From Solirubrobacteraceae bacterium (GTDB lineage Bacteria > Actinomycetota > Thermoleophilia > Solirubrobacterales > Solirubrobacteraceae): DNA of 64,000 nt. Below are positions 60,397 through 61,715 of the stretch, piece after piece. The stretch spans positions 1-64,000 of the forward strand of contig JANWLE010000037.1 in the NCBI GenBank assembly GCA_025451035.1. Reading direction: 5' to 3'. The notes beneath the pieces are model-generated. The model worked only from the letters and a program-made list of their open reading frames with translations, did no database searches and had not been told where the DNA came from. The translations under genes and the position numbers were made by a program. Position 1 is the first letter of the stretch, and every line of letters starts with the position of its first letter.

Positions 60397-61425
60397 TCAA
60401 ACAGTGCTGAACGATTTTCCGGCCAGTTCCGCCGCGCTGCGCACGGCGGATGCGTACGCGGCGAACCTATCAGTTGGGAGCGCCTGCGGTCCGTCGCAGA
60501 CTGCCCGGGATGGATCGGGATGAACCTCGACGATGACTCCGTCCGCCCCGGCCGCGGCTGCGGCGAGCGACAGCGGCTGAACCAGCTCGTGTCTGCCCGC
60601 TGCGTGGCTCGGATCAACGATCACCGGCAGGTGGGAGAGCTCTTTCAGGACAGGCACTGCCATCAAATCGAGTGTGAAGCGGTAGGAGGTCTCGAACGTG
60701 CGGATTCCTCGCTCGCACAGCATGACGTTCGGGTTCCCCTCGCTGAGGATGTACTCGGCAGCCATCAGCAGCTCCTCGAGCGTCGAGGAGAGCCCGCGCT
60801 TGAGCAGCACCGCGCAGCGTGTGCGGCCGACTTCCGCGAGCAGCGGATAGTTCTGCATGTTGCGTGCCCCGATCTGCAGCACGTCGGCGACATCGAGCAC
60901 GGCCTCGAGGTCGCGCACATCCATGACCTCGGTGACGATCGGCAGGCCTGTCTGCGCCTTCGCTTGGGCGAGCAGTCGCAGTCCCTCTCGGCCGAGTCCC
61001 TGGAAGGCGTAGGGCGAGGTTCGTGGCTTGTAGGCGCCGCCGCGGAACATGGTCCCGCCCACCTGCGCGACCACGCGCGCGGTCGTAAGCGTTTGCTCTT
61101 GCGACTCGACCGTGCACGGTCCCGCTATCAGCACGAAGTGCTCCCCACCTACCTTGCGTCCAGCTATCTCGAGCACCGTGCGCTCGCCGTTGCGGATCTG
61201 TGAGCTGGCCAGCGTGTAGGGCTTGTCGATCGACAGTACCCGCTCGACACCGGCCTGCTGGTGCAGGGGACTGACGTTGCCCTCGGGCGCGAGCGCGCCG
61301 GTGGTGCCGATCACCGTGACACGGTCACCGTTACTTCGGTGAGCACGCGCGCCCGAGCGCTCGACGTTGGCGAGGACAGCCTGCACCTCCTCCTCGCTCG
61401 CGTTCTCCTTCATGACGATCACCAT
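60397..61425 (-). CDS. aroF: DAHP synthase (type I-beta)
   Basis: 3-Deoxy-D-arabino-heptulosonate-7-phosphate synthase, the entry to aromatic synthesis. The 342-residue product has an N-terminal ferredoxin-like regulatory domain (MVIVMKENASEEEVQAVLAN, to about residue 75) and the KDO8P/DAHPS barrel with LIAGPCTVES, GGAYKPRTSPYAFQG, LQIGARNMQNY and VDPSHAAGRHE (metal ligands). ATG 61425 has AAAGGA upstream. It lies behind a 250-nt leader with an aromatic-codon peptide and competing hairpins. Confidence 0.95.
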   Translation of the reverse strand: MVIVMKENASEEEVQAVLANVERSGARAHRSNGDRVTVIGTTGALAPEGNVSPLHQQAGVERVLSIDKPYTLASSQIRNGERTVLEIAGRKVGGEHFVLIAGPCTVESQEQTLTTARVVAQVGGTMFRGGAYKPRTSPYAFQGLGREGLRLLAQAKAQTGLPIVTEVMDVRDLEAVLDVADVLQIGARNMQNYPLLAEVGRTRCAVLLKRGLSSTLEELLMAAEYILSEGNPNVMLCERGIRTFETSYRFTLDLMAVPVLKELSHLPVIVDPSHAAGRHELVQPLSLAAAAAGADGVIVEVHPDPSRAVCDGPQALPTDRFAAYASAVRSAAELAGKSFSTV

Positions 61426-61515: not shown

Positions 61516-61583
61516 GGCGCTCGGTCCGACTGGACCCTTGCGGCCGGTGGTCCCCGCTCACGGACGGGTGCGGCCGAAGCGCC
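61516..61583 (-). promoter_or_regulatory. Attenuator-like RNA structures before aroF
   Basis: Directly after the leader-peptide stop, RNA from 61583-61574 (GGCGCTTCGG) can pair with 61524-61516 (CCGAGCGCC). Inside, GGTCC (61536-61532) can pair either upstream with GGACC (61553-61549) or downstream with GGACC (61527-61523). Further GC hairpins (CCGAGCGCGCC at 61482-61472) offer alternatives. No clean T-tract follows, so termination could be Rho-dependent or control could act on translation. Confidence 0.5.
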
Positions 61584-61678
61584 TAGCTAAATCGCCAGTA
61601 GCTGAAAAAGCGGTGCGGCCGGACATCCGCGGAGGCGGACTCGCGGGGTGCAGCGAATGCCTGGCCAGAGACGTTCAT
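61583..61678 (-). CDS. Aromatic-amino-acid leader peptide of aroF
   Basis: A 31-codon ORF (ATG 61678 to TAG 61583) ahead of DAHP synthase. It begins NVSGQAFAAPRES and ends HRFFSYWRFS, so codons for Phe (three), Tyr and Trp cluster within ten codons of the stop. This is the layout of ribosome-mediated attenuators: starvation for any aromatic amino acid would stall ribosomes at the same place. The stop codon touches the first stem of the attenuator. A TCGACG-17-TACAAA promoter lies just upstream. A DAHP-synthase leader peptide of this kind (aroR) is known in Corynebacterium glutamicum. Confidence 0.75.
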   Translation of the reverse strand: MNVSGQAFAAPRESASADVRPHRFFSYWRFS

Positions 61679-61686
61679 GTACAGGG

Positions 61687-61715
61687 TTTGTAGCAGACCC
61701 GGAGCGTCTCGTCGA
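61687..61715 (-). promoter_or_regulatory. Candidate promoter of the aroF leader
   Basis: On the minus strand TCGACG and TACAAA are 17 bp apart, placing the start site within a few bases of the leader-peptide ATG, between hisC and aroF. Confidence 0.5.

Follow-up and report, generated by a model that had tools for sequence, protein, structure and literature searches.

A short leader peptide gene located between hisC and aroF of a Solirubrobacteraceae bacterium very probably senses phenylalanine, tyrosine and tryptophan together, judging from sequence comparison, at the first enzyme of the aromatic pathway, 3-deoxy-D-arabino-heptulosonate 7-phosphate (DAHP) synthase. The DNA analysed (hereafter the window) is the 64,000-nt stretch that comprises positions 1 to 64,000 of contig JANWLE010000037.1 (assembly GCA_025451035.1), with the leader and its neighbouring genes lying on the minus strand. 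The scheme favoured as a whole is that of a ribosome-mediated attenuator, in which a ribosome stalled on the leader would let a conserved helix, P1, form and expression would be on; a probability of about 0.68 is assigned to it. DAHP synthase feeds the synthesis of three amino acids, and a cell therefore needs a signal that any one of the three is short; in Escherichia coli the solution consists of three isozymes together with the repressors TyrR and TrpR, and in the order Solirubrobacterales one short reading frame appears to do the same work. That a combined Phe/Tyr/Trp leader may stand at this step had been proposed in an earlier note on the window, and this proposal is strongly supported by conservation throughout the order, by aromatic codons confined to the leader frame, by the retention of each of the three amino acids and by the link to DAHP synthase.

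The gene order on the minus strand is hisC (stop codon at 61730-61728), a gap of 302 bp, aroF (ATG at 61425), tyrA and aroA. Within the gap an open reading frame (ORF) of 31 codons, which begins with ATG and spans 61678-61583 (-) with its stop included, encodes MNVSGQAFAAPRESASADVRPHRFFSYWRFS. Its tail, HRFFSYWRFS, is followed by a TAG stop codon at 61585-61583, which adjoins a hairpin at 61583-61516. Five aromatic residues (F24, F25, Y27, W28 and F30) fall within the seven codons F-F-S-Y-W-R-F (61609-61589, minus strand), which are considered the regulatory codons on the basis of in-frame aromatic enrichment, Tyr retention and use of the rare TAT codon, as detailed below. When all in-frame stops on both strands of the 64-kb window are surveyed, that of the leader is the sole example with five aromatics in the eight preceding codons. 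Upstream of the ORF lies a promoter-like sequence, in which a −35-like TCGACG (61715-61710) is separated by 17 nt from TACAAA (61692-61687); the latter is preceded by an extended −10 motif, TGC (61695-61687 for the two together), and ends 8 nt before the leader ATG. Thus the promoter-like sequence, the 31-codon frame with its terminal residues and the presence of all three aromatic amino acids in seven codons before the stop are each found as the earlier note had described them. Similar promoter features recur in relatives, as TGnTACA occurs 5′ of the leader at 61 of 150 loci (2.7 expected), and the −35 position in 103 aligned relatives reads T (79 %), an unspecified base and G (67 %), with a spacer of 17 nt to the −10.

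Relatives were gathered by a search with the AroF protein, after which the upstream sequence was read. At most loci in this AroF-anchored set, drawn from three families of the order, aroF is preceded by a short ORF that ends W-R-F-x-stop, and the conserved DNA end of the leader can be written as TGGCGATTT-NNN-TAG-GCG. In the window this core takes the form TGGCGATTT-AGC-TAG-GCG (61597-61580, minus strand), corresponding to the codons W R F S and stop. A pattern search places the core in 161 of the 232 genomes of Solirubrobacterales, and in 83 of the 112 good ones; since it is conserved in about 160 genomes, the leader is not a chance occurrence. Leaders collected with an exact pattern cannot prove that the core is invariant, and that claim rests instead on the AroF-anchored set and on a search permitting two mismatches, whilst a relaxed pattern, open to every Arg and every Phe codon, revealed no other version of the core at the AroF-anchored loci. 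The leader set is unbalanced, as certain genera contribute many closely related sequences.

With regard to the distribution of the leader at greater distances, a phylum-wide sample contains the core in 12 of 396 genomes, of which 11 lie within the order (the window's own included) and one is a chance match outside it. A covariance model of the core and P1, applied to 249 genomes of the class, matched 63 genomes inside the order; three weak matches beyond it sit in unrelated coding sequence and were rejected. Candidate relatives outside the order, whether from the pattern or from the covariance model, are located inside genes or before no DAHP synthase. In a collection-wide DNA scan the contigs that carry the core belong, among the matches listed, to Solirubrobacterales, Thermoleophilaceae and Conexibacter, and the listed matches from outside the order have no DAHP synthase match. 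In the other orders of the class that were sampled, aroF is found close behind hisC or elsewhere, and no convincing aromatic leader precedes it. As no such element is seen in these orders, the leader looks like a lineage-specific innovation of Solirubrobacterales and not an ancient one. Of the two possibilities named in the earlier note, an independent version thus suits the distribution better than an ancient one, and the conservation of peptide frame and stem upstream of aroF in relatives, which that note had suggested as a check, is found across the order, though not in the other orders of the class that were sampled. A comparison of the window with Rfam gave no match at gathering thresholds, T-box included, and chance matches only at a relaxed threshold. 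Five loci from one family of the order (L037, L040, L043, L044 and L045, family f4) have no WRF leader upstream of aroF; they carry in its place another conserved hairpin, CACCAAAG-nnGTTnGCAGTCAAGAA-CTTTGGTGCGA, for which there is likewise no Rfam match.

The aromatic content of the leader is specific to its reading frame. Over the 12 codons that precede the core, aromatics account for 26 % in the leader frame as compared with 1.2 % and 4.4 % in the other frames, and the aromatic codons peak 2-4 codons before WRF. Trp and Phe are provided by the core itself, and 148 of 150 leaders have Tyr upstream of it. In column shuffles of the 141 distinct stretches, a control that leaves the relatedness among leader sequences in place, 17 stretches without an upstream Tyr would be expected; 2 are observed, and none of 2000 shuffles fell as low (minimum 6). 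Upstream Phe and Trp display no comparable excess in the same control. Four leaders have an altered core Trp codon (CGG, CCG, TTG and TCG), and every one of these leaders carries a Trp codon upstream. Furthermore, TAT makes up 45 % of the Tyr codons in leaders, as opposed to 2.3 % in the 5′ parts of aroF at the same loci. From the retention of Tyr, the upstream replacement of Trp and the excess of TAT, selection seems to maintain all three amino acids within the stall zone and to favour the rare Tyr codon there. The evolutionary logic would be that the fixed core secures Trp and Phe, that nearly all species add Tyr upstream of it, and that Trp is found upstream wherever the core has lost its own. 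The CGA and TTT codons of the core, both of which are rare for their amino acids in the genes at these loci, are fixed in essentially every leader found, with a single TTC (L303). A pairing partner for the invariant GCGAUUU was sought and rejected, as complementary stretches downstream and upstream are no commoner than for shuffled words.

DAHP synthase lies downstream of 150 of the 153 distinct core sites, with 104 of these enzymes being of the AroF type (TIGR01361) and 46 of the AroG type (TIGR00034); the remaining three sites comprise two chance matches and one contig that ends before the gene. Some of the AroF-type synthases behind the leader are without the N-terminal domain. Both types occupy the same slot before tyrA and aroA in the larger loci, with hisC upstream where it was detected. 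In terms of predicted gene content (AroF only, AroF with AroG, AroG only and, in one case, tyrA alone), the loci fit a history in which the enzyme was replaced and the leader remained, and on this comparison the leader goes with the DAHP synthase function and not with a particular gene family. Two loci (L073 and L094) carry AroF and AroG in tandem behind a single leader and are possible intermediates of such an exchange. At L303 (G038 contig C172) tyrA follows the leader directly; the leader here is the TTC variant, in which the last 12 codons are without Tyr, and the genome has an AroG-type synthase elsewhere, with no AroF found. The window's genome harbours a second DAHP synthase, of the AroG type, which is without this leader (L335, G000 contig C114: 25294-26331). 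The sequence before that gene ends TAGTAT-GGATTCACC-GTG, and its start looks leaderless.

Helix P1 begins at the third base of the stop codon and extends to as many as 11 pairs. In the window its 5′ arm, GGCGCUU (61583-61577, minus strand), is placed opposite the 3′ arm GAGCGCC (61522-61516, minus strand) by both the comparative helix and the predicted fold. A P1 of at least 8 pairs can be formed at 81 % of loci, compared with 11 % in shuffled downstream sequence. RNAalifold, run on a MAFFT alignment of 51 loci, returned P1 as the only consensus helix; because these loci were selected for a long P1, weight is placed not on the fraction paired but on two-sided changes, which are found in 7 of the 11 pairs (among them a replacement of G-C by A-U at pair 4 within one genus). 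Two species have CAG in place of the stop codon, and translation would extend for 4 or 8 codons through the 5′ arm, which is nonetheless kept. The loop of P1 has a median length of 37 nt, and in many species only 40-60 nt lie between P1 and the gene. Enclosed by P1 in the predicted fold of the window are a hairpin that varies between species (P2, 61576-61541, minus strand) and a further one, GGUCC-AGUC-GGACC (P3, 61536-61523, minus strand), which is also seen in the alignment of the window's genus. Overall, the window leader is no more stable than shuffled sequences (z −0.5), and the structural claim thus rests on comparison and not on energy. The earlier note had envisaged several mutually exclusive hairpins abutting the stop codon: one conserved hairpin, P1, does stand there, but competing structures are visible only by eye, in an alignment of the window's own genus. 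One of these, a GCGCC/GGGCGC partner of the P1 3′ arm, is seen in part of that genus and is absent from the window and from short leaders elsewhere. A pairing between GGCG of the core and the P1 3′ arm was also dropped, since three variants lose GGCG yet retain the leader.

We propose that these components would operate in the following manner. The RNA would begin at or just before the leader ATG, with a ribosome trailing the polymerase. A shortage of any one charged tRNA (Phe, Tyr or Trp) would stall this ribosome in the aromatic cluster, 8-26 nt before P1, whereupon P1 would form and the operon would be expressed. Where all three are plentiful, a ribosome at UAG would cover the 5′ arm and keep P1 open, and transcription would stop (or the message would not be used) before the DAHP synthase gene. 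Going by the distances, a ribosome at Tyr or Trp would leave P1 free, one at the core Phe would overlap no more than its initial few pairs, and one that has reached the stop codon would cover most of the 5′ arm; the ribosomal footprint of about 26 nt that has been applied to attenuation at ilvB1 of Mycobacterium tuberculosis fits the distances in the leader (PMC13236596). Whilst the presence and codon content of the leader, helix P1, the promoter-like sequence and the DAHP synthase link are drawn directly from the aligned sequences, the stalling and the sign of control are what we infer from them. The element appears to work like an attenuator, as it shares with the trp type a short ORF between promoter and structural gene, end-product codons near the stop and a conserved helix that is placed for masking by a ribosome at the stop and would be free when the ribosome is stalled. 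The mutually exclusive terminator hairpin and U-tract of that type were not found, often only 40-50 nt being available between P1 and the gene. We do not place the element in the classical class, since a search for a competing terminator was unsuccessful.

A number of observations weigh against the attenuator. There is no terminator-like site at the locus and no U-tract or T-run after P1, in agreement with the earlier note, which had remarked on the want of a clear T-tract; nor is any competing hairpin conserved across the order. The invariance of GCGATTT in the core exceeds the needs of the peptide, and attenuation gives no explanation for it. Most of the genomes are draft metagenome assemblies, and none of 41 genomes of the order reaches the TIGR00767 cut-off for Rho. 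It seems that a highly divergent Rho is all that the order possesses: in the window's genome the best homologue (L373:1411-2742, G000 contig C8) scores 164 bits against a cut-off of 509, and lacks sequence both following Walker B and near EFKGTGNMEL, which we take to be the sites of the Rho Q- and R-loops. Given such divergence, Rho-dependent ending of transcription cannot simply be assumed; as the Rho N-terminal and RNA-binding domains are retained in this homologue, an altered form of Rho-dependent termination is possible. With a terminator missing and Rho so divergent, one may ask by what means attenuation would bring transcription to an end in these bacteria. One tentative and rather doubtful answer is that this is a three-amino-acid attenuator without an intrinsic terminator, in a lineage with degenerate Rho, where GCGAUUU-NNN-UAGGC and the stop-codon helix would take part in an undescribed termination or antitermination step.

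The absence of an intrinsic terminator at the locus and the divergent Rho would also suit translational attenuation, in which the stalled ribosome alters access to the aroF ribosome-binding site and not transcription, a form of control cited for the cys genes of Mycobacterium smegmatis (PMC13236596). This is considered unlikely, as the predicted openness of the ribosome-binding site is practically unaffected by ribosome position (0.56 at the stop codon, 0.55 at Trp and 0.54 at Tyr), although secondary-structure prediction is a weak test of the matter. Moreover, no complement to the site is enriched in the P1 loop or after P1, and the complementarity of the leader to it is only slightly above that of shuffles. 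The fixation of the GCGATTT and TAGGC nucleotides beyond what the peptide needs would favour a structured RNA to which a protein or small molecule binds, riboswitch-like as has been proposed for the LEU element, with the short ORF being incidental. This has little to recommend it in view of the codon-level signals, namely the frame-specific aromatics, Tyr retention, upstream Trp after loss from the core and rare TAT, together with the lack of an Rfam match.

It might further be argued that P1, a long GC-rich helix and the sole structure to be conserved, acts as a terminator that lacks a U-tract. Stalling would then lower expression, which is the wrong sign for a biosynthetic gene, and neither the median loop of 37 nt nor the lack of a T-run after P1 accords with this function, such that it is judged more improbable still. 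The least probable explanation of all, to the point of being barely tenable, is that the leader peptide acts in trans after release; its WRF end is conserved, and a trans role is reported for the leader peptide peTrpL (PMC7298713), but outside this end the present peptide is free to vary, selection acts on codon choice and on RNA structure, and a DAHP synthase gene is nearly always found in cis to the site.

Downstream of the leader, the putative attenuator would act on aroF (61425-60397, minus strand), which encodes a DAHP synthase with an N-terminal ferredoxin-like domain (TIGR01361, PF00793, PF18152). The gene is preceded by a ribosome-binding site, GAAAGGA (61439-61433, minus strand), and GAAAGG is common at this position in relatives. 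The next gene of the cluster is tyrA, for prephenate dehydrogenase (60382-59259, minus strand), and after it comes aroA, for 5-enolpyruvylshikimate 3-phosphate synthase (59308-57953, minus strand), the start codon of which is uncertain. At 58 of 94 loci (17 expected) a −10-like TANNNT, without a −35, occurs mostly 30-40 nt 5′ of the aroF start. This box is weak in the window (61455-61440), and may represent a second promoter that bypasses the leader.

Amongst known systems, the AroR leader of the aroF operon in Corynebacterium glutamicum resembles the present element in that it, too, is an aromatic-codon peptide before an actinobacterial DAHP synthase (PMC11802643; PMC4046766). According to a review, AroR has Phe-Tyr-Phe with no mention of Trp, and responds to limitation of Phe and not of Tyr (Neshat et al. 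2014, via PMC11802643). The element of Solirubrobacterales, by contrast, contains codons for Phe, Tyr and Trp alike, together with a fixed RNA core and a stop-codon helix, and is confined to one order of another class, with the two being compared by description only. With regard to common descent with AroR, the sampled other orders of the class and phylum gave no covariance-model or pattern match, the sequence of AroR itself having not been aligned. A second likeness is to the LEU element before leuA in Actinobacteria, which similarly combines a leader ORF with conserved RNA structure, is without a classical terminator and stands at the first enzyme of its pathway (Seliverstov et al. 2005, PMC1262725). 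The base stem of the LEU pseudoknot, however, pairs Leu codons with the ribosome-binding site, whereas P1, the only consensus helix here, starts at the stop codon and has no contact with that site. The same survey of Actinobacteria reported no RNA element at the phenylalanine or tyrosine operons of the genomes that it covered (PMC1262725). Branched-chain operons already offer examples of a single leader that senses several amino acids (PMC13236596). These ilvB-type attenuators, such as that of Mycobacterium tuberculosis ilvB1 with its LVVI codons, differ from the present leader in having an intrinsic terminator and U-tract, neither of which was found here; they agree with it in that one leader serves several end products and a ribosome at the stop masks an arm of the expression-favouring structure (PMC13236596). 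No report of the element described here was found in the literature consulted, and as far as that literature shows, it is the triple aromatic version, its spread throughout an order, its association with two enzyme families and its want of a visible terminator that set this leader apart as new.
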